64,000 nucleotides of DNA, taken from positions 2,480,001 through 2,544,000 of the forward strand of contig NZ_CP116805.1 in NCBI RefSeq assembly GCF_028463845.1, read 5' to 3'. Source of the stretch: Gimibacter soli. GTDB taxonomy: Bacteria; Pseudomonadota; Alphaproteobacteria; Sphingomonadales; Kordiimonadaceae. Shown here piece after piece: positions 712-39,768 of the stretch. Position 1 is the stretch's first letter, and the number at the start of each line of letters is the position of its first letter. The position numbers and the translations under genes are program-made. A model generated the notes under the pieces. It saw nothing but the letters and a program-made list of their open reading frames with translations. It searched no databases and was not told the DNA's origin.

Positions 712-2295
712 CTAGAAATCGAAATAGATGAAGGCCTGCGTCTGCACGGCCGGAAGGAAAAGCAGGCCATAAAGGATGGCAAGCGCGAGATTGAGCCGGA
801 TGAATTTCGGCACCCGCCAGAAAAACTCCAGATCGCGCATCCGGAACTGGATGATCTGCACCAGCACCAATGGCGCGATATAATGGAGCACCCTGACGAT
901 GCTCGGGTCGGTCCAGCCCTCGGTCCCGAACAGCCCGATGAAATAGGTGCCAAGGCTCGCCATGTCGTTGGCGCGGAAGATCAGCCAGCCAATGAGCGTG
1001 AAGCCGAACATGACGGCCATCAGGAGCCCGTTGATCGCCACCCGGCTCGCCATCGCGCGGTTCTTGAAGCCCTCGAGCCAGTCGTCGATGTTGAAGATGC
1101 GGTAGATGACAAGGAGCAGGCCGTGATACGTGCCCCACAGAACAAAGGTCCAGCTCGCCCCGTGCCACAGCCCGCCAAGGATCATCGTCAGCGAAAGGTT
1201 GCGGTAGGTGCCAATCGCCCCGCCCCGGTTACCGCCGAGCGAGATATAAAGATAGTCGCGAAGCCAGCTTGAAAGGCTGATATGCCAGCGCCGCCAAAAC
1301 TCGCTGGGCGTGCGCGAGACATAAGGCAGGTTGAAGTTCAGCATCAGATCGAAGCCGAGCATGCGGGCAGAGCCGCGCGCCATATCGCTATAGCCTGAAA
1401 AATCGCAGTAAATCTGGAAGGTGAAGGCCAGAAGCCCGGCAAACAGCTGCCCCGCTGTCATCAGCGAGGGGTCCGCGAAAGCCTGATTGGCGATGGGCGC
1501 GATATTGTCCGCAATCACCACCTTCTTGAACATGCCCCAGGCAAAGAGCACGGCGCCCGTCTGGATATTCTCCCAGTTCAGGTGGCGCAGGCGGTCGAAC
1601 TGCGGCAACAGGTGCGCGGCGCGCTCCACGGGGCCAGCCACAAGTTGCGGGAAGAAAGCGACGAAGGCGGCAAGTTCGATGAAACGATCGGTGGGCTTCA
1701 GGTTGCCGCGATACGCGTCGATCGTGTAGCTGAGCGTCTGGAAGGTATAGAAGGAAATACCGACCGGCAGCACGATCTCGAGCGTTACGTAGCTGAAACC
1801 GATGCCGAAGGTATCGCCGAGCGCCACGAGCGATTCCGCAAAGAAGTTCAGATACTTGAAGACGCCGAGAATGCTCAGGTTGATGACCACACTGGAGACG
1901 ACATAGAATTTCCGGCGGGCGGCTTCATCCATGCGGCGCGACAGGAACTCGATACCGACAAGGATGGCGCCAAGGCCCATCACCGCCAGGAAATACTGGC
2001 CGGATGTCTCCCACTGCGCGCCAAGCGCCACAAACGAGCCCACAAACAGATAGCCAAGCGCGGTGCCAACCTGACGGTTGGTGATCTTGTTACCCGCGGC
2101 CCCAAGCCCTGCCAGATAGTCGGTCGCGGTCGACGCGATGATCAGGACCAGAAAGCGCTCATCCCAGGCGCCATAGAAGACATAGCTGCCAATCAGGATC
2201 AGAATATTCTGGAGGCGCAGATGCTTCCGGGTCAGATAGTAAAGGCCGAAGAAGACTGTGAAGAAGGCGAAGAAAAGCGGCGTTTGAAATAGCAT
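712..2295 (-). CDS. MBOAT-family membrane O-acyltransferase (AlgI/DltB type)
   Basis: 527-residue polytopic membrane protein, normal length for the AlgI branch of the MBOAT family. Diagnostic blocks are QIYCDFSGYSDMARG near residue 294, EFWRRWHISLSSWLRDYLY near 332 with the first conserved His at 338, and GGLWHGASW near 374 with the second essential His at 378. Such proteins pass acyl (usually acetyl) groups across the inner membrane to a periplasmic acceptor. Here the gene sits between two SGNH-domain genes with gaps of 3 and 12 bases, a strong sign of one transcription unit acting on a secreted glycan. The acceptor cannot be told from sequence; no alginate genes are visible in the window. 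Confidence 0.93.
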   Translation of the reverse strand: MLFQTPLFFAFFTVFFGLYYLTRKHLRLQNILILIGSYVFYGAWDERFLVLIIASTATDYLAGLGAAGNKITNRQVGTALGYLFVGSFVALGAQWETSGQYFLAVMGLGAILVGIEFLSRRMDEAARRKFYVVSSVVINLSILGVFKYLNFFAESLVALGDTFGIGFSYVTLEIVLPVGISFYTFQTLSYTIDAYRGNLKPTDRFIELAAFVAFFPQLVAGPVERAAHLLPQFDRLRHLNWENIQTGAVLFAWGMFKKVVIADNIAPIANQAFADPSLMTAGQLFAGLLAFTFQIYCDFSGYSDMARGSARMLGFDLMLNFNLPYVSRTPSEFWRRWHISLSSWLRDYLYISLGGNRGGAIGTYRNLSLTMILGGLWHGASWTFVLWGTYHGLLLVIYRIFNIDDWLEGFKNRAMASRVAINGLLMAVMFGFTLIGWLIFRANDMASLGTYFIGLFGTEGWTDPSIVRVLHYIAPLVLVQIIQFRMRDLEFFWRVPKFIRLNLALAILYGLLFLPAVQTQAFIYFDF

Positions 2296-2298
2296 AAG

Positions 2299-3042
2299 TC
2301 AGTCATCCATAACGCCGCGCAGCGCGGCCGCAATGCGTTCGTATCCTAGCGGAGAATAATGAAGGGCGTCCACGAAGTTTTCCCGCCCATATTCGCCCCC
2401 TGCCATCAGCACCATTTCAAGGGGCAGATAGATGACCCCTTCGCCATTCAATTCGGCAAGCCTCTCATTGAGAGCCTCGACATCGGGGCTGGAATCACCC
2501 CAGAGAAGCGCGCGGGCAATGTCTGGCTGAACCGGCGGGGTAACGGAAGGGATAATCACCTCGATGCCCGCCTCGCGGCAGGCAGCAATCATGGCAGCCA
2601 GATTGGCTTGTGCTGCAGCTACGATACCGGCGCGTTTGCCATCTTCCAGCATCGAGGCCGTATTCAGGTCGTTGATGCCTGCGAAAATGATGACGGCATC
2701 GGGCTTGCGCTCTATCACGTCTTTCTGCAGGCGCACCAGCATGTTAGGCGTCGTATCACCGCCGATGCCGGCAATTTCGACGCCGCGACCAAGAAGCGCG
2801 TCCGCCCCGCGAAAGTTGGCTGCGCGGCTGTCGCCAAAAATCACAATATCCGGGGATGGTGCGCCGCTTCGATCCGCCACGCTCGCCCAGCCAGGTTCAA
2901 GATGGCCAAGGCGATACTCGATGTAAAAGGCACGGGCAGCGAAAAAGGCGACAATTGCTGAAGCCAGCAAGACGACGGTCACTCTGGACCAGAATTTCTG
3001 CCGTTTCGTCAAGCCGCCCCTCCCCCGGTCTGGCTTGCGCAA
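2299..3042 (-). CDS. SGNH/GDSL-family hydrolase or acyltransferase with N-terminal anchor
   Basis: 247 residues. A single transmembrane segment at about residues 20-38 is followed by an SGNH domain: block I DIVIFGDSR (Ser 72), block III FAGINDL (Asn 124) and block V DALHYSPLGYERIA with the Asp/His pair near the C-terminus. All catalytic blocks are present, so it should be active, probably in the periplasm. It is the first gene of the SGNH-MBOAT-SGNH operon; its stop lies 3 bases before the MBOAT start. It could be the acyl-transfer partner of the MBOAT protein or a de-acylating esterase that balances it. Confidence 0.86.
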   Translation of the reverse strand: MRKPDRGRGGLTKRQKFWSRVTVVLLASAIVAFFAARAFYIEYRLGHLEPGWASVADRSGAPSPDIVIFGDSRAANFRGADALLGRGVEIAGIGGDTTPNMLVRLQKDVIERKPDAVIIFAGINDLNTASMLEDGKRAGIVAAAQANLAAMIAACREAGIEVIIPSVTPPVQPDIARALLWGDSSPDVEALNERLAELNGEGVIYLPLEMVLMAGGEYGRENFVDALHYSPLGYERIAAALRGVMDD

Positions 3043-3167: not shown

Positions 3168-3455
3168 TCAGGCCGTATATTTGAAATTGTCGGCATAGGC
3201 CTGGATATTGCGCTTGCGCGAATGATCCGGCGCTACGGTGTACTCAAGCCCCATGCGCTTGGCATAGCTTTCAGCTTCTTCGAGCGTGTCGAATTTCAGC
3301 CGGACCTGACCTTTGGTATCACCCGAGCCCACCCAGCCCATCACGGGGTCGAGCGTCTTGCCCTTCTCGGGCTCAAACTCGAGAAACCATTGCCGCGTGT
3401 TGCGGGTGCCGGACTGCATGGCGGTCTTGGACGGACGATAGATGCGTGCACTCAT
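3168..3455 (-). CDS. Complex I accessory subunit of the NDUFS4 type (ETC complex I subunit)
   Basis: 95 residues, the usual size of the alphaproteobacterial homologue of mitochondrial NDUFS4. The frame contains the typical path: an N-terminal ARIYRPSKTAMQSG stretch, a central WFLEFEP and DPVMGWVGSGDTKGQ region, the LKFDTLEEAESYAKRMG helix, and a C-terminal RKRNIQAYADNFKY tail. The family stabilises the N-module of NADH:quinone oxidoreductase at the inner membrane. It lies alone, away from the nuo operon, downstream of nothing obvious on the same strand. Its presence supports an alphaproteobacterial host. Confidence 0.93.
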   Translation of the reverse strand: MSARIYRPSKTAMQSGTRNTRQWFLEFEPEKGKTLDPVMGWVGSGDTKGQVRLKFDTLEEAESYAKRMGLEYTVAPDHSRKRNIQAYADNFKYTA

Positions 3456-3547: not shown

Positions 3548-4282
3548 TTAGAAGACAAGCGAGGCCAGCGCGTGTTTCACCGGCAGGCACCGCACGCCGC
3601 TTTTAGCAACGGCATCCACCACGGCTCTGAATTCATCCGGGCGACAGCCGAAGGGGCTCGGTTTTTCAGCCACCTCGTGGGTGTAGAAGATCAGCCAGCC
3701 GCCGTTCGCCGCCACGTCGGCAATCTTGCCTTCAAGGGCCGCAAGGTCAAACCCGTTGCTGTAAATCTGGTTGGCGCGAAGGTTGCCAAGGTCGGCAAGC
3801 CCCCGGTTGATGCCCCCGGTCACGCCCCGTGCACTGCCGAAACGGTCGCTCGCCAGCCGTTTGGCGGCAACCGACATCTTGCCGAAGGGATAGGCAAAGC
3901 TGTAGGGCGCAAGGCCGGTCAGTTCGGTGATCGCGACCTTGTTCTTTTCAAGGTCAGTGGCAACCGCCGCCGCGCTGTTTGCCTGACAGTCCATATGGCT
4001 GAAGGTATGGCAGCCGATTTCGTGACCGGCATCGAAAGCGGTTTTCACCGTGTCCGCGCTCGCGATGCTATGGCCTTCAAGCTCGGCGTCTATCAGTCCG
4101 GCGCACAGATAGAAGGTCCCGGTCATGTCGGCCGCTTCCAGAATGCGCCCGCCCTGCTCGTAGGCATCCACATGGAAATCATCGAAGCAGAAGCTGATCG
4201 CACCCCGGCCCTTCGGCAGGGTCATGCGGCGGCTCGGTGCATAGCGGGCGACGCGGCGCTCGATCTTTTCAAGAAGCGACAT
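3548..4282 (-). CDS. Polysaccharide deacetylase (NodB-homology domain)
   Basis: 244 residues. NodB motifs are visible: motif 1 ISFCFDDFH with the Asp pair at residues 34-35, motif 2 HTFSH with metal-ligand histidines 92 and 96, a YPFGK region near 130, and a late FYTHE histidine. No signal peptide is evident, so it may act in the cytoplasm or be exported in another way. The start overlaps the 3' end of the FkbH-type gene by 14 bases, so the two are translated from the same message. Substrate is probably an N-acetylated sugar in a surface glycan; that is inference from the family and neighbours. Confidence 0.88.
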   Translation of the reverse strand: MSLLEKIERRVARYAPSRRMTLPKGRGAISFCFDDFHVDAYEQGGRILEAADMTGTFYLCAGLIDAELEGHSIASADTVKTAFDAGHEIGCHTFSHMDCQANSAAAVATDLEKNKVAITELTGLAPYSFAYPFGKMSVAAKRLASDRFGSARGVTGGINRGLADLGNLRANQIYSNGFDLAALEGKIADVAANGGWLIFYTHEVAEKPSPFGCRPDEFRAVVDAVAKSGVRCLPVKHALASLVF

Positions 4283-6113
4283 GATCGATCACCTTCACAT
4301 TGACGATATCCTGATGGTCGAAAGGCTTGCCGTCCGGCCGTTGCAGAATCTTGAAGTCCCCGTCCATGCCAACCTCATCGAAGCCGAGCTTCGAGAAAAT
4401 CTCGGCGGGCTTGATGTTGCGGTCGCTCGGCTTGAAGCGGATTTTCATGTCCGCGCCCTGGCTTTCCAGAAAATGCTGGATCACGGCATGATCGACATAT
4501 TTGCCCTGGATACGGCAGCTGAACATCAGGTCCTCGAGAAGCCCGGCTGGCCTGTCAAAGATCGCCAGGCCCACGATGCCGTAATTGCCGAAGCGGTCGG
4601 ACGCGTGCACCAGCATGGCAAGCTTGTTGTCACTCGCCGCGATTTCGGCAAGCTGCGTTTTGGTGTAGCGGCAGCCCGAGAAGTTCATCTGGTTGGTGCG
4701 CTGTGCCAGCTCGTGGGCGCGCGGCAACCGGTCCTCCGACAGGGGCTCCATCTCAACCTGCAGGTTACAGCCACGCAGGAAGGCAAGGAAATCCGCCTCG
4801 CCGTTGGTGGCAAGGAAGCTGTTGCGGCTCATTTCGTCGCGGTACATCTGGCGGCGCCCGGCGCTTTCGTCGGTCACTTCCACATCGAACGAGGGATGAT
4901 CCCGCCAGCTTTCAAAATCAAGCGCATCGAAGGTGCGCACCGCCGGATGGATCGTCGACACTTCCTCGCGCTCGAACGGCTGGTCATCAATGAAGGCGAA
5001 GGTATCAATCCCGATATTCAGGCTTTGCCGGATGATATCAATCGACTGGCTTTTGGGCCCCCAGTTGATTTGCGGATAGAGGAAATATTCCTCGATGCCG
5101 AGCTCACGGAGCTTCGCGAGGCCATCGGCCTCGTTATTCTTGCTGGCGACCGAATGCAGGATGCCCCTGGCGTCCATCGCCTTGATGAAATCGATCAGCT
5201 CGGTGCGCGCAACCAATTTGTCGGCGCCGTCCTCAATCAGCACCCCTTTCCAGAGCGTGTTATCGAGGTCCCAGATGATGCATTTCACTTTGTCTGCGGG
5301 GGTTTTCTTGGCTTCCTTCTTGGCGGCGGGCTTTGCAGCCGCCGACAGGAACTTCTGCGGATCACGCAGCTGCACGAAATCAGCGAACAGGAAGGCGATA
5401 TCTATATTGCCACCCTCTTCCGCCGGATAAACCGCCACGAAATAATCACCGGAAAGATCGATGAGCGCCGAGATCGACGCGAGATCGATCACCACACTCG
5501 TCAGGCCCGGCTCAATCGTCACATTCTTCTGGAACACGCCGGTGCGGCCATCCTTGTTGCGAAACTCAAGGATGAGGCTCGCCGCTTTGCCGGAAAGGCT
5601 GACGGCCTGCAGCAGGAAGGCATGCGATGCCGTCACCGGTACGCTGGCGCTGCGACGCGCGAGCTTCGATTTCAGGCCATAGAATTTACGGGCCGCCCAG
5701 GTACGCGCCCCGTGCGGTACAGGAAAGTGCCAGATCAGGCTGCCGATCACGGACGAAAGGCCAAGCGCGAGCGATGTGATAAGCCCACCCCGCAGCGCAT
5801 GACTGCCGATGGCTTCAAGCTTTGCCCATTTCCCGTAAGCAACCCGCGCCATCTTCGCGCCGTCCGGCCCCGAGGCAACCTCGAAACCGCGGCGGAACCG
5901 GGCACATTTGAAATCGCGGCGCGGCGCATAGAACTGGCAGGACGTGAAACAGGCCGGCATCGTGCATTCGCTGCAATGTTCCGACCATGAAAGAAGCGAC
6001 CGCCCGACAATGTCACCCGGCTGTACAAGGCCGGTGAGTGCGTCTGCCCCGAGGCCTTCGGGCCAGGCGATGCGCTTCACATTGCCGGATTCACTTTCAA
6101 TCAGCATTGCCAT
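4269..6113 (-). CDS. FkbH-type HAD-IIIC/GNAT protein with cysteine-rich N-terminal extension
   Basis: 614 residues, about twice a minimal FkbH domain. C-terminal half: HAD-IIIC phosphatase core with the DLDNT motif at residues 282-286 and FIDDQPFEREEV, then a GNAT-like part with LAQRTNQMNFSG and a SCRIQGKYVDHAVIQHF block. FkbH proteins load three-carbon units such as glyceryl groups onto carriers or glycans. The N-terminal 260 residues are unusual: five cysteines at 47, 50, 55, 59 and 70, a hydrophobic stretch near 108-128, and a likely beta-sandwich at about 160-250, then an Ala/Lys linker. The gene is translationally coupled to the deacetylase. A second ATG at 6107 is also possible. Confidence 0.85.
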   Translation of the reverse strand: MAMLIESESGNVKRIAWPEGLGADALTGLVQPGDIVGRSLLSWSEHCSECTMPACFTSCQFYAPRRDFKCARFRRGFEVASGPDGAKMARVAYGKWAKLEAIGSHALRGGLITSLALGLSSVIGSLIWHFPVPHGARTWAARKFYGLKSKLARRSASVPVTASHAFLLQAVSLSGKAASLILEFRNKDGRTGVFQKNVTIEPGLTSVVIDLASISALIDLSGDYFVAVYPAEEGGNIDIAFLFADFVQLRDPQKFLSAAAKPAAKKEAKKTPADKVKCIIWDLDNTLWKGVLIEDGADKLVARTELIDFIKAMDARGILHSVASKNNEADGLAKLRELGIEEYFLYPQINWGPKSQSIDIIRQSLNIGIDTFAFIDDQPFEREEVSTIHPAVRTFDALDFESWRDHPSFDVEVTDESAGRRQMYRDEMSRNSFLATNGEADFLAFLRGCNLQVEMEPLSEDRLPRAHELAQRTNQMNFSGCRYTKTQLAEIAASDNKLAMLVHASDRFGNYGIVGLAIFDRPAGLLEDLMFSCRIQGKYVDHAVIQHFLESQGADMKIRFKPSDRNIKPAEIFSKLGFDEVGMDGDFKILQRPDGKPFDHQDIVNVKVIDHVAS

Positions 6114-33244: not shown

Positions 33245-33548
33245 ATCAAATGTCTTCCGCTGTCATCTTTTGGCCGCAATGGCTCTCTAATCGAACTCGC
33301 AGACTACCCGGCAGGCCAGAAATCACTTGCGCCGGAGCCGCGCAGATTGTAATTCAGCCGTAACATTCGGGACAAAACTAACTGCCTGAAATGAATAAAA
33401 TGGGACCCGGGCGAATCAAGGATTTTCTTTCGGGTTTGCAAGCAAAATATCAGTTCCAGGGACGGGACCGACGGCGAATCGGAACGACCCTCGTATGTTA
33501 TTTGGTACCGGTCCGTTTGTCTGGATCTATTTGGTTGAAGCGAGCGCT
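33245..33548. other. Divergent intergenic region upstream of the ceramide operon
   Basis: About 300 bases between the minus-strand aminotransferase and the plus-strand acyl-ACP synthetase. It must contain the promoter of the spt operon. I see no clear -35/-10 pair, CtrA box or long palindrome. An in-frame ATG at 33495 lies within it but lacks a good ribosome-binding site. Confidence 0.45.
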
Positions 33549-35282
33549 ATGACTTCAGTAACGCCTACCCTTGACCCCACCCTGCCGCGTCGCTTTGCGG
33601 ACTTCGATACTCTTGTCGACGCAATGGAATATGCGGCGCAGGGTATTCGGGGCGCCAATTTTTTTGACGCACGGGGTGATCTTGTAGAGTCGGTTACCTG
33701 GACCGAAATTCGTGACCGCGCCCGTATCATCGGCCGCAAACTGACGGGCCTTGGCTTCAAGCCGGGCGACCGCATTGCGTTGATCGCCGAAACGAGCGCC
33801 AATTTCGTGGCCTTTTTCGTGGGCTGCCAGTATGCGAGCGTCCTGCCCGTGCCACTGCCCCTGCCGACCTCGTTCGGTGGCAAGGAAGGCTATGTGAGCC
33901 AGCTGCAGGGCCAGATGCAAAGCTGCGATGCCTCGGGCATCATGGCGCCGGAATTCATGAGCAGCATCATCGCCGAAGCCACCGAAGGCATGAGCCTGCG
34001 CTTCAAAGGCTCCTACGCTGACTATGCCGCCGCCGATGCAGACGCCGAGCATAACCTGCCGACCGCAGATGACCTCGCTTACCTGCAATATTCTTCCGGC
34101 AGCACGCGCTTCCCGCACGGTGTGGCGGTTACCCACCGGTCGCTCCTTGCCAACACCTTCGGCATGGGCTTCCACGGCGTGAAGCTGCAGGATACCGACC
34201 GCTGCGTTTCCTGGCTGCCTTTCTACCATGACATGGGCCTTGTCGGCACGCTCCTCACCACCCTCACCTGCCAGGTATCGGTGGACTTCATCCCGACCGA
34301 GGAATTTGCCCGCCGCCCGCTTACATGGCTGCGTGTTCTGTCGAACAACAAGGGCACCATTTCCTACAGCCCGACCTTCGGTTTCGATGTCTGCTCGCGC
34401 CGCGCTGCCATGCGCGCCAGCGCCCTTGAAGGCCTCGATCTTACCAGCTGGCGCGTGGCCGGTATCGGCGGCGACATGATCCGCCCCGACGTGATGCGTG
34501 ACTTCTTCGAGACCTTCCGGTCGATTGGCCTCAAGAAAACGATTTTCCTGCCGAGCTACGGCCTTGCCGAATGCACCTTGGGTGTGAGCTTCGGCGAAGT
34601 GGGCAAAGGGATCGAGATCGATCTCGTCGAGGAAGCCCTTCTGGGCGGCGACCGCCACCTCCTCGTCACCAACTCCAAGGACAACGACCGCAAGCGCGAA
34701 GTTGTCAACTGCGGCAAGCCGCTCCCCGAATATGAGATCGAAATCCGCGACGAAGACGACGCCGCCCTTGGCGAAGGCCATGTGGGCCGTGTGTTCGTAC
34801 GTGGCACCTCGGTCATGCGGGAATATTTCAACGATCCCGAAACCACCCGCGACGTTCTGTCGGAAGACGGCTGGCTCGACACCGGCGACATGGGCTACAT
34901 GAAGCGCGAGTGCCTCTATATCGTTGGCCGCGCCAAGGACATGATCATCGTCAACGGCCGTAACCATTGGCCGCAGGATATCGAATGGGCTGCCGAGCAG
35001 CTTCCGGGCGTGAAGGCCGGCGATATTGCCGCCATTTCGGTTCCCGGCGAGAATGCCGAAGAAGTGCCGATGATCCTTGCCCAGTGCCGCCAGTCGGACC
35101 CGGCGGACCGCGCCCGTTTCGCCGACATGCTGAAAAAGCATGTCCAGAAAACCACCGGCATCAACTGCCTGATCGAGCTTGTCGGCCCACGCGCCCTGCC
35201 GCGCACCTCTTCGGGCAAGCTCAGCCGCTCCAAGGCCCGCAACCAGTATCTGTCGGGCCGCCTGCAGGCCCTCGCGAGCTGA
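33549..35282 (+). CDS. Fatty-acyl-AMP ligase / acyl-ACP synthetase of the ceramide locus
   Basis: 577 residues from the ATG at 33549. An adenylate-forming enzyme: A3-type loop YSSGSTRFPHGVAVTH, in which the usual Gly-x-Pro-Lys reads Arg-Phe-Pro-His, SWLPFYHDMGLVG typical of acyl-AMP ligases, SYGLAECTLG, and the hinge GWLDTGDMGYM ... GRAKDMIIVNGRNHWPQDIE. This HDMGL/YGLAE pattern is the FAAL type. In the caulobacter ceramide pathway the matching gene loads a fatty acid on the dedicated ACP. The next gene starts 1 base after its stop. Confidence 0.9.
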   Translation: MTSVTPTLDPTLPRRFADFDTLVDAMEYAAQGIRGANFFDARGDLVESVTWTEIRDRARIIGRKLTGLGFKPGDRIALIAETSANFVAFFVGCQYASVLPVPLPLPTSFGGKEGYVSQLQGQMQSCDASGIMAPEFMSSIIAEATEGMSLRFKGSYADYAAADADAEHNLPTADDLAYLQYSSGSTRFPHGVAVTHRSLLANTFGMGFHGVKLQDTDRCVSWLPFYHDMGLVGTLLTTLTCQVSVDFIPTEEFARRPLTWLRVLSNNKGTISYSPTFGFDVCSRRAAMRASALEGLDLTSWRVAGIGGDMIRPDVMRDFFETFRSIGLKKTIFLPSYGLAECTLGVSFGEVGKGIEIDLVEEALLGGDRHLLVTNSKDNDRKREVVNCGKPLPEYEIEIRDEDDAALGEGHVGRVFVRGTSVMREYFNDPETTRDVLSEDGWLDTGDMGYMKRECLYIVGRAKDMIIVNGRNHWPQDIEWAAEQLPGVKAGDIAAISVPGENAEEVPMILAQCRQSDPADRARFADMLKKHVQKTTGINCLIELVGPRALPRTSSGKLSRSKARNQYLSGRLQALAS

Positions 35283-35283
35283 T

Positions 35284-36231
35284 ATGAGCGACCCCGTGGC
35301 GACGGCACCCGTCGTCGCCCTGACCGGGGCGACCGGTTTTCTCGGCGGTCATCTGATCGATAGTCTTTTGCGTGCCGGATACCGCGTGCGTGCCCTCACC
35401 CGCCGCACGCCCACCGACAACCGCACCGGGCTTGAGTGGATCAAGGGCGACCTTGACGACGAAGACGCGCTTGAAGATCTCTGCGAAGGGGCCGAGGCCG
35501 TCATCCATGCCGCTGGTCTTGTGAAAGCGCTCAGCCGCAGTGACTATTTCGACGTCAACCTGAACGGCACGCTCGCCGTACTGAAGGCGGCAGCCGACGA
35601 AGACGTGAAGCGCTTCTTCCTTGTCTCCAGCCTGTCGGCCCGCGAGCCGCGCCTGACCCATTATGGCGCCTCGAAAGCCGCAGCCGAGCTTGCCGTATCG
35701 GCGCGTCCCTGGCCGTTTCGCTGGACCATCATCCGCCCGCCTGCCATCTATGGCCCCGGCGACATGGAAATCCTGAAGCTGTTCAAGGCGACCCGGTTTG
35801 GCCTTCTGCCCAACGGCGGCTCGCGCGACAATCGCTTCTCGATGATCCACGGCGCCGACATGGCCGAGGCCATCGTTGCCATGCTGAAGGGCGGTTTTGG
35901 AGGCCAGATCGTGGAAGTGGACGACGGCCGTGACGGCGGTTACCGGATCGACGATATCGCCAGGGCGCTCGGCGACGACGAGAAAACACCCCGTGTGCTG
36001 GCCATCCCGCGCCCGCTGGTGATCTTTGCCGGCGCTATCGGCAGCCTCGTCGGACGCATCATCGGCAAGCCGCTCACGCTCAATCTGGACAAGGCCCGGC
36101 TGATCACCCACCCGGACTGGCTGGTGCGCGGCGCACGGCGCCCGTCGATCCCCGGCTGGACCCCCGTTTACGACCTGAAATCGGGCCTAAAAAACACAAT
36201 TGAATGGTATCGCCTGAACCGCTTTTTGTGA
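35284..36231 (+). CDS. cerR: NAD-dependent epimerase/dehydratase-type SDR, probable ceramide reductase
   Basis: 315 residues from the ATG at 35284. Extended-SDR features: ALTGATGFLGGHLIDSLL (GxxGxxG) near residue 11, D-rich KGDLDDEDALEDL, VIHAAGLVKALSRSDYFDVN, FLVSSLSAREP, the active-site HYGASKAAAEL (YxxxK) and IIRPPAIYGPGD. In bacterial sphingolipid synthesis the oxidised ceramide formed by N-acylation of 3-keto-sphinganine is reduced by an SDR of this type (CerR in Caulobacter). Position between the acyl-ACP synthetase and the ACP/SPT pair makes that role likely; the gene symbol is by analogy. Confidence 0.85.
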   Translation: MSDPVATAPVVALTGATGFLGGHLIDSLLRAGYRVRALTRRTPTDNRTGLEWIKGDLDDEDALEDLCEGAEAVIHAAGLVKALSRSDYFDVNLNGTLAVLKAAADEDVKRFFLVSSLSAREPRLTHYGASKAAAELAVSARPWPFRWTIIRPPAIYGPGDMEILKLFKATRFGLLPNGGSRDNRFSMIHGADMAEAIVAMLKGGFGGQIVEVDDGRDGGYRIDDIARALGDDEKTPRVLAIPRPLVIFAGAIGSLVGRIIGKPLTLNLDKARLITHPDWLVRGARRPSIPGWTPVYDLKSGLKNTIEWYRLNRFL

Positions 36232-36306
36232 TAGGTTCCGCGTCACCCTGCCAGCAGCCCGGTTTCCGGGTGCGCCGGCCCCCAACCAAGAGGCGGATTT
36301 ATTTCT

Positions 36307-36555
36307 ATGGCAAACGCCCAAACCCTCGACCGTATTTTCGAACTGGTCACCCCCTTCAACAAGAAGGGCATTGAACTTCAAGCGGACACGACTTTCGCGA
36401 CAGACCTTGATCTCGACAGCCTGACCGTGATGGATCTGGTGGCTGAAATCGAAGACGCGTTCGACATCATCCTGCCGCTCAATCTGCTGCCCGAACTCGA
36501 AACCATCGAGCAGGTGGCCGACGCCGTCGACCGCATCGTGGCCGACAACGACTGA
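36307..36555 (+). CDS. Acyl carrier protein dedicated to sphingolipid synthesis
   Basis: 82 residues, acidic, four-helix ACP. The 4'-phosphopantetheine site is Ser 38 in DLDLDSLTVMDLVAEIED. It is shorter in helix I identity to the housekeeping AcpP (no GADSLD motif) and lies 22 bases before spt, as in caulobacter-type loci where the ACP carries the acyl chain used by serine palmitoyltransferase. Confidence 0.93.
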   Translation: MANAQTLDRIFELVTPFNKKGIELQADTTFATDLDLDSLTVMDLVAEIEDAFDIILPLNLLPELETIEQVADAVDRIVADND

Positions 36556-36577
36556 GCCTTTTGCCCGAGTACCGACG

Positions 36578-37783
36578 ATGGACCTGTTTGACAAATTCGA
36601 TCCGCTGATCGCCCAGAAATCCAGCCTGCCGTTCGAGAAGGCCGACCCCTTCAAGGTAGTGATGGAAAAGGTTCTCTCCGAGACCGTTGCGATCATCGAT
36701 GGCCGCGAGACCATCCTTGCCGGCACCAACAATTACATGGGCATGACCTTCAACGAGGAAGCGATTGCTGCCGCCAAGGAAGCCCTGGACAATTACGGCA
36801 CCGGAACAACCGGCAGCCGCGTCCTTAACGGCACCTATTCGGGCCATAAAGGCCTCGAGAAAACTATCGCCGACTTCTATGGCATGGACCATTGCATGGT
36901 CTTTTCCACGGGCTATCAGGCCAACCTTGGCATGATCTCCACCCTCGCAGGTGTCGACGATTATGTCATCATCGATGCCGACAGCCATGCCTCGATCTAT
37001 GACGGCTGCGCCATGGGCAATGCCACCATCGTGCGCTTCAAGCACAATGACATCGAAAGCATGGAAAAGCGCCTGAAGCGCCTGCCGGAAGGCGTTGGCA
37101 AGCTCGTTGTCGTCGAAAGCCTTTATTCGATGCTGGGCGATGCCGCCCCGTTGAAAGAACTTCTGGAAACCGCCAAGAAATACGGCTGCACCACGCTCGT
37201 GGACGAAGCGCACTCGATGGGCTTCTGCGGCGAAAAAGGCCGCGGCCTTTGCGAGGAACTCGGCGTCGAGCATCTGGCTGATTTCATCGTCGGCACCTTC
37301 TCGAAATCGGTTGGTACCGTTGGCGGCTACTGCGTTTCGAACCATCCGAAATTCGATGTGCTGCGCCTTGTGTGCCGCCCCTATATGTTCACGGCTTCGC
37401 TGCCGCCGAGCGTGGTGGCGTCGGCCACGGCAGCCATCAAGGCGCTGGAGCGCAGCGGGAACCGCCGTGCCCACCTGTGGGAAAATGCCCGCCGCCTGCA
37501 TTCGGGTCTGAAAGCCGCCGGCTTTACGCTGGCGACCGAAACGGCAACGAGCCCGATCATCGCGGTTTGCCTGCCGGACCCCCTGATCGCCACCAAATTC
37601 TGGGAAAAGCTGCTCCTGAACGGCGTTTACGTGAACATGGCCCTGCCGCCTGCCACGCCCGCCGGTTACAACCTGATGCGGGTCAGCGTTTGTGCGCAGC
37701 ATACGACCGAACAGATCGACGAGATCACCCGCCGCTTCATCGCCACGGCAGAAGAACTGGGCCTGAACGTCAAGGCTGCCTGA
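36578..37783 (+). CDS. spt: Serine palmitoyltransferase
   Basis: 401 residues, soluble homodimeric bacterial type. Alpha-oxoamine-synthase motifs: NNYMGMTF near residue 51, TGSRVLNGTYSGH near 78, the PLP-stacking His 138 in DADSHASIYDGC, ESLYSMLGD near 180, DEAHSMG at 209-215, and the PLP lysine 243 in GTFSKSVGTVGG. The sequence follows the Sphingomonas enzyme closely by eye, closer than to KBL or BioF. It condenses L-serine with an acyl thioester to 3-keto-sphinganine, the first committed step. Ends the operon at a strong terminator. Confidence 0.95.
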   Translation: MDLFDKFDPLIAQKSSLPFEKADPFKVVMEKVLSETVAIIDGRETILAGTNNYMGMTFNEEAIAAAKEALDNYGTGTTGSRVLNGTYSGHKGLEKTIADFYGMDHCMVFSTGYQANLGMISTLAGVDDYVIIDADSHASIYDGCAMGNATIVRFKHNDIESMEKRLKRLPEGVGKLVVVESLYSMLGDAAPLKELLETAKKYGCTTLVDEAHSMGFCGEKGRGLCEELGVEHLADFIVGTFSKSVGTVGGYCVSNHPKFDVLRLVCRPYMFTASLPPSVVASATAAIKALERSGNRRAHLWENARRLHSGLKAAGFTLATETATSPIIAVCLPDPLIATKFWEKLLLNGVYVNMALPPATPAGYNLMRVSVCAQHTTEQIDEITRRFIATAEELGLNVKAA

Positions 37784-37804
37784 CCCGGCGAACATCCGAT
37801 ACAG

Positions 37805-37830
37805 AAAGGGCCGCATTGCTGCGGCCCTTT
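37805..37830 (+). terminator. Intrinsic terminator of the spt operon
   Basis: Perfect 11-bp stem AAAGGGCCGCA (37805-37815) / TGCGGCCCTTT (37820-37830), loop TTGC, followed by TTCTTT. Starts 22 bases after the spt stop. Confidence 0.92.
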
Positions 37831-37838
37831 TTCTTTGC

Positions 37839-38753
37839 CTATTTGAAGGCGCCCTTTTTCCTTAGGCTCCAGAAAAGCGAGATACCGGCGAGCACCGGGT
37901 GGCGGCGCATCCAGTCGGTGACTTCGATCTCCACCCCCGAATGACGGCGGATCTTCCAGGCAAGATAGTCGATGCCACCATCAAAGGTCATGGAAGCCTT
38001 CACAAGCCTGAGGAAACTGACAACCTTGCCGTTCCAGCGGCGCCGCGCCCAAAGGAAGCCGGGCGAGTGTGGCATCGGGATGCCGTCAGCCGCGATCACA
38101 CCGGCAAGCGACGGCGTGAAGCGGTCATACCGTTCCTGATCGAGCAGATAAAGCTCCAGCCCCTTGCCCGGCTTTTCAGACCGCAGCTCGGCCGCATAGG
38201 TGGCCTCGAAGGCTGCCACCCACCAGTCGCGCGGCGCCGCGCTTTCGATCAGCGGCTTTGCAGCCTCGAGCATCGTCACGCTGGCCTCAGCAATGGCTGC
38301 AGCAATCCGGTCGCGCGATGCGTCATCTTTGGCTGAAAGCAGTAGTGTCGGCTGCGAGAAACGCGCCCAGACGGAGACATTCAGGCAGCTGCGCCCGGTG
38401 CGGTATTCAAGATCGGCAAGCGACAGGACGGCATATTTGGACCGCACGATCATGCCGCCATGATTGAACTCATGATAAAACACGTTCGGCGGGATCAGCT
38501 TGTTGGCAACGGCCAGAAACCGGCTTTTATAGGCCGCAGCATAATCACTGACGATCACATAGAAATCGAGGATCTTGTCCTCGATCTCGCCCGTCCGCAG
38601 GCAGGAACCATAGAAGAGCGTGCCAAGAGCGGCATCCCCATAAAGGGCGGCAATCCGGCTGGCGGCTTCAACCGCGGCCTCGGCGGCCGGGCGCTGCCAT
38701 TCCTGAAGGATGAAATCGCGGGCGCCCGCGCGGGCTTCCTGTGGCGTGGTCAT
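37839..38753 (-). CDS. Nucleotidyltransferase-like protein of the ceramide headgroup cluster
   Basis: 304 residues, no signal peptide. Near the N-terminus GTLFYGSCLRTG (Gly-Ser at 49-50) followed by EIEDKILDFYVIVSD (Asp 59 and Asp 63) resembles the GS...D-x-D core of pol-beta-type nucleotidyltransferases. The rest is mixed alpha/beta with a basic, hydrophobic C-terminal part (residues about 240-304) that may bind membranes. It sits next to spt and 16 bases downstream of the lipid-kinase gene. By position it corresponds to one of the cpg genes for ceramide phosphoglycerate in Caulobacter; I infer a headgroup role and cannot name the reaction. Confidence 0.72.
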   Translation of the reverse strand: MTTPQEARAGARDFILQEWQRPAAEAAVEAASRIAALYGDAALGTLFYGSCLRTGEIEDKILDFYVIVSDYAAAYKSRFLAVANKLIPPNVFYHEFNHGGMIVRSKYAVLSLADLEYRTGRSCLNVSVWARFSQPTLLLSAKDDASRDRIAAAIAEASVTMLEAAKPLIESAAPRDWWVAAFEATYAAELRSEKPGKGLELYLLDQERYDRFTPSLAGVIAADGIPMPHSPGFLWARRRWNGKVVSFLRLVKASMTFDGGIDYLAWKIRRHSGVEIEVTDWMRRHPVLAGISLFWSLRKKGAFK

Positions 38754-38769
38754 GCGTGTTGGCCGCGCG

Positions 38770-39768
38770 TCAGAGCCGGACGAAGGTGAGGCACTTGTCG
38801 CCCCGCAGGACCACAGGGCGGCCCGGGATCGGCGTGTAGATTTCGCCGTCGAGCGTCATCGGGTCGCTGCCTTCGATAAGGATTTCGTCGCCGCAATAGG
38901 TGTGCACGCCTTCTGCCGGGCGGCGGCCAAACACGCCGGTGAGCAGGTCGCGCATGCCGCGCCACACATTGGCGCCGCCAAATTCAACCGCTGCGAAACG
39001 AAGGCCACCAAGTCCGTCCTCGGCATAGGGGCGCAGGCCGAACAGAAGCCGGTCGAGCGTCGTCGCCGTCACGATGGCGAAACGCCCGGTCAGCGTTACC
39101 CTGCCCCGTACATCAAGCTGCATGGGTTCGGACGCCATCAGGTTGCGGTCCTTGCCAAGGCCGGCGGCGGACGAGATCAGCTTGAAGGCCGACCACAGGT
39201 GCGCCATCCAGTTGGGCAGGCCAAGGCTGTAGGCATTCTCGCGGCACCAGAAGATGCCTTTCACGATACCGGCAGTCCCGAAGAAGGTGCCAACCTTGGG
39301 GTGCGATCCGTCGCCAAGGTCCAGCTCGATCAGCTGGCGGCTGGTCAGGTTGTCGTCCACCTTGCCGAAGGCCGCGAGGCGCAGCAATTTTTTGAGGACA
39401 GCATCCGGCCGCCCTTTGGCGCCAAGGTCTGCAGCCGTCATGTTCGTCTTGCCGCCGGGCAGGAAGGAAACCGGCGGCGTCGATTTGAAGGGGTTGCGGT
39501 AGAGAAGTGCAGCAAGCACGGCACCGATCGTGCCGTCGCCGCCGTTGATGACCACGAGGCCGACGCCGGCACGGGCGAACAGCGCAAGGCCTTCATCGAT
39601 GGATTCGATGCCATCAAGTTCGAAATGGATCACATGCGGGGTGGCATCCACAATGGAGCGGATGCGGCTCATGCCCTCGGCATTGGTGGAACTGCGCGGG
39701 TTGGAAAGAATACCGACGAGCAAGATGCCCGATTTGCCTTCTTCCACGATATGCCGCTCATGCTGCAT
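38770..39768 (-). CDS. DAGK/LCB5-type lipid kinase, probable ceramide kinase
   Basis: 332 residues. The diacylglycerol-kinase catalytic domain is clear: ILSNPRSSTN near residue 18, VVINGGDGTIGAVLAALL (GGDGT) near 75, and SFLPGGKTNMTAADLG near 105, where the usual GTxND reads GKTNM. Later HTYCGDEILIEG and an acidic PMTLDGEIY (the D-G-E metal/lipid site). In Caulobacter the kinase CpgB of this family phosphorylates ceramide, and the gene lies beside spt as here. Ceramide as substrate is inferred from context. Confidence 0.87.
   Translation of the reverse strand: MQHERHIVEEGKSGILLVGILSNPRSSTNAEGMSRIRSIVDATPHVIHFELDGIESIDEGLALFARAGVGLVVINGGDGTIGAVLAALLYRNPFKSTPPVSFLPGGKTNMTAADLGAKGRPDAVLKKLLRLAAFGKVDDNLTSRQLIELDLGDGSHPKVGTFFGTAGIVKGIFWCRENAYSLGLPNWMAHLWSAFKLISSAAGLGKDRNLMASEPMQLDVRGRVTLTGRFAIVTATTLDRLLFGLRPYAEDGLGGLRFAAVEFGGANVWRGMRDLLTGVFGRRPAEGVHTYCGDEILIEGSDPMTLDGEIYTPIPGRPVVLRGDKCLTFVRL

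Follow-up and report, generated by a model that had tools for sequence, protein, structure and literature searches.

The FkbH-type gene and its deacetylase partner

We analysed a stretch of 64,000 nucleotides from Gimibacter soli (contig NZ_CP116805.1, positions 2,480,001 to 2,544,000), called here the window. At positions 4269-6113, on the minus strand, it carries a gene for an FkbH-type protein with five cysteines in a long N-terminal extension. A gene for a NodB-family deacetylase follows and overlaps it by 14 nt. The reading frame covers exactly 4269-6113, with its start ATG at 6113, and the translation of 614 amino acids places the cysteines at residues 47, 50, 55, 59 and 70, as the first-pass annotation of the window had read them. 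The genome consists of one contig of 3.59 Mb and presents a single match to this protein. The two genes and the segments of the FkbH-type protein are listed below. E is the expectation value of a match.

4269..6113, minus strand: FkbH-type protein with N-terminal five-cysteine module, 614 amino acids (TIGR01686 FkbH, 209.1 bits)
5805..5996, minus strand: cysteine module, residues 40-103, with C47, C50, C55, C59 and C70 (alignment of 15 proteins; motif in 17/17 loci)
5634..5804, minus strand: variable, locally hydrophobic linker, residues 104-160 (12% mean identity; hydropathy)
5364..5633, minus strand: putative beta-rich domain, residues 161-250, fold not established (26% mean identity; P230 and D245 invariant in 15 members)
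4899..5291, minus strand: HAD-IIIC catalytic domain, residues 275-405 (TIGR01681, E 3.5e-17; D282, D284, T286, K354, D376, D377)
4359..4898, minus strand: FkbH C-terminal domain, residues 406-585, with S532-C533-R534 (S-C-R kept in 15/15 family members)
3548..4282, minus strand: HfsH-like NodB-family deacetylase, 244 amino acids (PF01522, E 9e-21; NF050820, 170.2 bits)

Residues 276-578 match the FkbH domain (E 8.5e-62), and the score against TIGR01686 lies above the curated cut-off of 146.65 bits. Three other members with the cysteine module reach 232-251 bits. For comparison we used nine other FkbH proteins from named plasmids, picked among 30 listed of 109 matching records. Across the window protein, four other members and these nine, 25 positions of the catalytic half are identical. 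They include D282, D284, T286, K354, D376, D377, N474, Q475, N477, D506 and S532-C533-R534. The enzyme core is therefore intact, and the C-terminal half reads as a complete FkbH enzyme.

The first-pass annotation took FkbH enzymes to be usually 300-370 residues long. This does not hold for the proteins fetched: four of the nine have 598-637 amino acids and another has 1028, with N-termini that differ from that of the window protein. Long N-termini are therefore common among FkbH proteins. Pfam even has a family named FkbH_N, which one of six ordinary FkbH proteins matches. In a tree of 24 proteins, the branch that parts the cysteine family from the others has an ultrafast bootstrap of 84, and the polyketide-type FkbH proteins are nearest to it.

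The partner deacetylase scores 74.6 bits against PF01522 (cut-off 23.1). Its best family is the HfsH equivalog NF050820, although its score is below the cut-off of 400. The amino acids D34, D35, H92 and H96 are invariant in 12 aligned partner deacetylases; we take D35, H92 and H96 to be metal ligands. No signal peptide is evident by eye. The promoter scan found 2 sites (shuffled mean 2.1) and the terminator scan 9 (shuffled mean 6.7).

The family and its cysteine module

Searched alone by pairwise comparison, the N-terminus is found in 2 of 29 genomes of the family and in 1 of 385 genomes of the class, its own. This result made it look like an orphan domain restricted to the genus, a view that was overturned by a scan for the cysteine pattern. 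A degenerate DNA pattern for H-C-x-E-C-x4-C-[YF]-x2-C occurs in 7 of 398 Pseudomonadota genomes, the window's own included, and not in the reversed control. All seven places sit in open reading frames (ORFs) with the same architecture. A profile of the N-terminus recovers members in 11 of 60 genomes of a second alphaproteobacterial family (that of genome G670) and in 4 of 48 genomes of another Pseudomonadota order (that of G440 and G420). With two Pseudokordiimonas genomes, the sample amounts to 17 loci. The closest named relative is Pseudokordiimonas caeni (order Kordiimonadales), with 94% identity over the whole protein and 90% over the N-terminus.

Across the 385 class genomes, with at most six candidates scored in each, the profile returned the own genome only. 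A looser pattern of cysteines alone gave eight places in seven of these genomes and one in the reversed control. One of the eight is the gene itself; the other seven were judged from the matched letters, untranslated. Pairwise N-terminus searches of plasmids returned nothing, and the same was true of profile and pattern scans of viral contigs.

The exact spacing C-x2-C-x4-C-x3-C-x10-C is found in 17/17 loci. The alignment contains the 15 intact proteins; two frame-split genes (L034 and L042) were left out, though both carry the motif. All five module cysteines are invariant in the 15 proteins, and Cys 278, 449 and 481 vary. Further invariant residues of the module are E45, H46, E49, P53, Y62, P64, R65, D67, G76, W96, E100 and G103. 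The conservation of the cysteine-bearing N-terminus, on which the first-pass annotation had staked its reading, is thus borne out in the homologues. The selection of the loci has to be kept in mind here. The initial pattern required four of the cysteines, and the profile itself was built from cysteine-bearing members. The fairer tests are the fifth cysteine and the nine loci found only by the profile, and both pass.

Compared with the 13 members outside the genus, the window protein has a mean identity of 45% in the module (residues 40-103), 48% in the HAD domain and 35% in the C-terminal domain. The cysteine module is therefore constrained like the catalytic domain. The identity falls to 12% in residues 104-160 and is 26% in residues 161-250. 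A hydrophobic stretch does exist at residues 109-127 (mean Kyte-Doolittle value 1.74), as annotated at first. It is not a conserved element, since the segment around it has only those 12% outside the genus, and it is therefore incidental. A role as membrane element was rejected on hydropathy and on the same identity value.

No Pfam or NCBIfam family covers the cysteine module. Residues 1-265 match no Pfam family except for one weak match (MFS_MOT1, E 0.093), and FkbH_N (PF21211) does not match the N-terminal region at E up to 10. A comparison with PHROGs gave no match. Two families appear below threshold at E up to 10: Fer4_11 (PF13247, 4Fe-4S dicluster) in 3/15 modules, and CDPF1 (PF10170) in 5/15, with a best E of 0.011 that is not the window's own. 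These matches hint at a metal in the module. A thymidylate synthase returned for the module by the solved-structure search (E 0.018, best domain i-Evalue 6.7) was judged to be chance. Searches with the beta-rich segment, putatively the jelly-roll-like part of the first-pass annotation, gave nothing convincing; one of the 15 members presents a sub-threshold match to CIA30 (E 0.079). By its sequence, the gene belongs to a distinct FkbH subfamily whose strongly conserved cysteine module has no family in Pfam or NCBIfam.

The frame of L042 (in G773) is split between the cysteine module and the rest, and in L034 (in G786) the FkbH and deacetylase genes are both split. These splits are either sequencing errors or decaying genes.

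Gene neighbourhood of the family

An HfsH-like deacetylase gene lies directly downstream of the FkbH-type gene, at -16 to +3 nt, in 13/13 alphaproteobacterial loci. These include L034, where both genes of the pair are frame-broken, and L041, where the contig ends inside the deacetylase gene. Across 55 pairs of genomes, the identity of the FkbH-type protein correlates with that of the deacetylase at 0.98, although shared descent alone would account for much of this value. In the family of G670, the FkbH-type gene is present in 11/60 genomes, all 11 with the adjoining deacetylase, and a related deacetylase (E up to 1e-8) is present in 43/60. FkbH therefore implies the deacetylase and not the reverse. 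This one-way dependence is expected if FkbH acts on the deacetylated product. Twelve loci with the deacetylase and no FkbH gene were fetched, and none contains an FkbH-like ORF. The ORF calls recovered the deacetylase in nine of them, and at least four of these nine, judged by eye, adjoin genes of glycosyltransferase and chain-length-like type. When the own genome was searched for the XrtA-type deacetylase family, a single weak match below the cut-off came up, in the partner deacetylase itself.

In the other order, a NodB-superfamily deacetylase of another kind lies within 3 kb in two of the four loci (L031 and L033), as does a FemAB/GNAT-type gene (PF13480). The deacetylase of L031 has 23.4 bits against PF01522 (cut-off 23.1), and that of L033 is 45% identical to it. 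Four loci (L030, L032, L039 and L041) end at contig ends, so absences there are weaker. Among the open-access papers searched, none combines FkbH, polysaccharide and deacetylase.

Ordinary FkbH loci usually have an annotated gene for an acyl carrier protein (ACP) within two genes (7/9). We searched for such genes with a profile of nine ACPs, leaving out one locus at a time. The profile recovers 7/7 of these control loci, each at E about 3e-7 or better, and it also picks up the ACP that the window carries at about 36.2 kb (E 1.6e-5). It finds no ACP gene in the 17 family loci, which mostly cover about 10 kb on either side; its best match there has E 5.2. An earlier motif scan was discarded, its positive control having recovered 1/7 annotated loci, and the profile was used instead.

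The window ACP (about 36234) lies in a group of genes at 33495-39768 known here from ORF translations only. It consists of a fatty-acyl-AMP-ligase-like gene, a short-chain dehydrogenase/epimerase gene, the small ACP, a serine-palmitoyltransferase-like aminotransferase and a diacylglycerol-kinase-like gene. We take this group to resemble a bacterial ceramide (sphingolipid) cluster of the Caulobacter type.

Three further genes lie downstream of the deacetylase gene on the same strand:

3168..3455, minus strand: NDUS4 gene (accessory subunit of complex I), past the deacetylase gene and before the SGNH and MBOAT genes; present only in the genus among the 17 loci (2/17)
2299..3042, minus strand: SGNH/GDSL hydrolase gene (PF13472, E 1.2e-19); same neighbour only in the genus
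712..2295, minus strand: MBOAT O-acyltransferase gene (PF03062, E 1.4e-23); near the pair in 2/17 loci, both of the same genus

Weak SGNH matches occur in six other loci, at a distance of several kb. A coupling of homologues to MBOAT genes, which the first-pass annotation had proposed to check, finds no support outside the genus, and MBOAT was rejected as a core partner on this count. The coupling to a NodB deacetylase fared better: besides the pairing in all alphaproteobacterial loci, exopolysaccharide genes lie about 12-30 kb from the pair in the window's genome. They comprise an O-antigen-ligase-like gene at about 12 kb and an exosortase V cluster at about 15-30 kb. In this cluster exosortase V, EpsI type V, EpsD, a PEPxxWA-CTERM protein, a glucose phosphotransferase and a glucuronosyltransferase are over their cut-offs, and the EpsE and EpsF matches are below theirs. 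Beyond the left end of the window (L068, genome positions 2450001-2470000, and L026), an exosortase-V exopolysaccharide/PEP-CTERM cluster is present, with glucuronosyltransferase and pyruvyl-transferase-like genes.

In G750 and G786, the pair is followed by a GH18-NodB-GT2 protein. This fusion of 1118 amino acids is encoded at 4406-7762 of L029 and at 4511-7864 of L034, both on the minus strand. For the G750 copy the best NCBIfam match is PgaC, below the cut-off, and its NodC match is likewise below.

Two plasmids carry FkbH genes in other settings. In Sinorhizobium meliloti (L081, CP050512.1), an MBOAT gene, an ACP gene and an FkbH gene for 628 amino acids lie within four genes, possibly a Dlt-like O-glycerylation system. 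In Komagataeibacter saccharivorans (L080, 1639-4725, plus strand), a protein of 1028 amino acids joins a DUF1796 putative cysteine peptidase, tetratricopeptide-like repeats and an FkbH-like part, and its gene adjoins a glycosyltransferase-61 gene.

Possible function and comparison with known systems

The observations to explain are the conserved architecture, the intact FkbH residues, the invariant cysteines, the tight pairing with the deacetylase and the lack of a nearby ACP gene. In our preferred reading, the two enzymes would together swap the N-acetyl group of a glycan amino sugar for a glyceryl or similar acyl group, with the cysteine module as a metal site and no ACP. We give it a probability of roughly 0.38.

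In the cytoplasm, the deacetylase would strip the N-acetyl group off an amino sugar while the surface glycan is still nascent. A phosphorylated three-carbon acid would serve the HAD domain as substrate; for FkbH-like enzymes this is given as 1,3-bisphosphoglycerate. The acyl group could then be held as a thioester on C533, a site proposed because this cysteine is invariant and because of work on OzmB, which reportedly supports it. The C-terminal domain may pass the acyl group to the exposed amine, and the product would be an N-glyceryl group or a close relative. The five-cysteine module would bind a metal, either Zn or Fe-S, and the beta-rich segment might take the part of a dedicated ACP by helping to keep the glycan acceptor in position.

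Parts of this scheme have parallels in the literature. The available text of PMC7489565 assigns to FkbH-like proteins the formation of glyceryl-ACP from 1,3-bisphosphoglycerate. A gene with an fkbH domain, cj1302, is placed at the flagellar glycosylation locus of Campylobacter jejuni in the accessible part of PMC7099621, and flagellin of strain NCTC 11168 bears minor amounts of a di-O-methylglyceric acid sugar according to a passage of PMC3958885. In the holdfast, HfsK is suggested to acylate the amines that HfsH exposes (PMC5362036, in the portion seen).

Several points weigh against the proposed swap. The substrate, the acceptor, the metal, the thioester site and the direct transfer free of ACP are all inferred. 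A distant housekeeping ACP could serve the enzyme. In the family of G670, the pair of L028 adjoins housekeeping genes instead of a glycan cluster, and the ORF layout shows the same for seven more loci. Of the four loci of the other order, L030 has no deacetylase close by, and L032 lies at a contig end. The Fer4_11 score of the window module is 14.1 bits, below the cut-off of 26.2, and an AlphaFold2 model made from two sequences is unreliable (predicted local distance difference test, pLDDT, 31.8). Moreover, the analogy with HfsH and HfsK is itself weak, and the available part of PMC8449245 describes HfsK of Hirschia baltica and its paralogs as without a role in holdfast binding.

A rival explanation is a classical, ACP-dependent FkbH enzyme. 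Such an enzyme would form glyceryl-ACP on a housekeeping ACP, and an unlinked FemAB/GNAT-type transferase would act on the amine exposed by the deacetylase, with the cysteine module having a structural or partner-docking role. FkbH chemistry as described in the accessible text of PMC7489565 is ACP-linked. At 41% identity, the closest ordinary FkbH proteins are encoded in operons that include an ACP gene, and a FemAB/GNAT-type gene accompanies a deacetylase in the two loci of the other order. However, the profile that recovers every control finds no ACP gene in the family loci, and the FemAB/GNAT-type proteins of L031 and L033 are unmatched in the other 15. We consider this explanation doubtful, though a serious candidate. 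Very improbable, by comparison, is a Dlt-like O-glycerylation, in which the neighbouring MBOAT and SGNH proteins would put an FkbH glyceryl thioester on a secreted polymer and the NodB gene would be just a co-transcribed glycan gene. In its favour, the SGNH and MBOAT genes follow on the same strand, the best NCBIfam match of the MBOAT protein is DltB (below cut-off), and the Sinorhizobium plasmid groups an MBOAT gene with an ACP and an FkbH gene. Nevertheless, the MBOAT gene accompanies the pair in a single genus, and the deacetylase does so in all 13 alphaproteobacterial loci.

Other doubts concern the module and the acyl group. The module might work as a redox switch of Fe-S or thiol type, through which the glycan modification would follow oxygen or redox state, and not as a structural metal site. 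The dicluster matches in three modules point this way, and so does the spacing C-x2-C-x2-P-x-C-x3-C, which we believe some 4Fe-4S dicluster proteins share. Ferredoxins, as we understand them, have a proline after the fourth cysteine, which is lacking in the module. CDPF1 matches more members than Fer4_11. A redox switch seems distinctly unlikely. The FkbH part may instead have been recruited for a different acyl group, such as lactyl or that of some other hydroxy acid, or may act simply as a phosphatase on a sugar phosphate. The substrate is unreadable from the sequence, and FkbH domains occur in varied clusters. In contrast, the positions common to polyketide-type and other FkbH proteins are kept, S-C-R included, and the polyketide-type proteins stand nearest in the tree. 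We regard such a recruitment as decidedly improbable.

The replacement of N-acetyl by a glyceryl-like group can be carried further, to a self-contained glyceryltransferase free of any carrier. FkbH chemistry would then have moved from polyketide/ACP metabolism to the tailoring of surface glycans. The five-cysteine metal module, possibly Fe-S, and an acceptor-binding domain would replace the ACP, and the pair would place N-glyceryl on exopolysaccharide. In this full form we find the proposal unlikely.

The first idea of a composite FkbH enzyme paired with a deacetylase is partly supported by these results. What gives the locus its interest is a module that is strongly conserved yet unannotated and is joined to a catalytic unit of known kind, with a partner in a two-gene operon that suggests the target of the enzyme. 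If the preferred reading is true, the glycerate chemistry of FkbH would extend to surface polysaccharides without a carrier protein. It would also offer a candidate gene pair for replacing the acetyl group on amino sugars, which could change the charge and stickiness of bacterial adhesins.

Among known systems, the flagellar locus of Campylobacter jejuni is alike in having an FkbH gene, cj1302, at a glycan locus, and a di-O-methylglyceric acid sugar can occur on the flagellin of this species; the available source text does not link the two. The Caulobacter holdfast pair HfsH and HfsK shares the HfsH-like deacetylase and the logic of deacetylase plus acyltransferase, as suggested in the accessible part of PMC5362036. 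It differs in that HfsK is GNAT/FemX-like and not FkbH, and the window deacetylase reaches 170 bits where the HfsH family asks for 400. More than 200 residues before the HAD domain are likewise present in long FkbH proteins, among them BF1531 (3slr) and a Niveispirillum protein with PF21211. However, the N-terminus of the window protein is unmatched by PF21211, and C-x2-C-x4-C-x3-C is absent from the nine other FkbH proteins. The polyketide methoxymalonyl FkbH enzymes (TIGR01686), of which we take OzmB to be a characterised example, have the same HAD-IIIC and C-terminal domains, and two Streptomyces examples are 41% identical to the window protein. Compared with them, the window protein has no ACP gene nearby, and it presents about 270 extra N-terminal residues, the five-cysteine module and a deacetylase partner.

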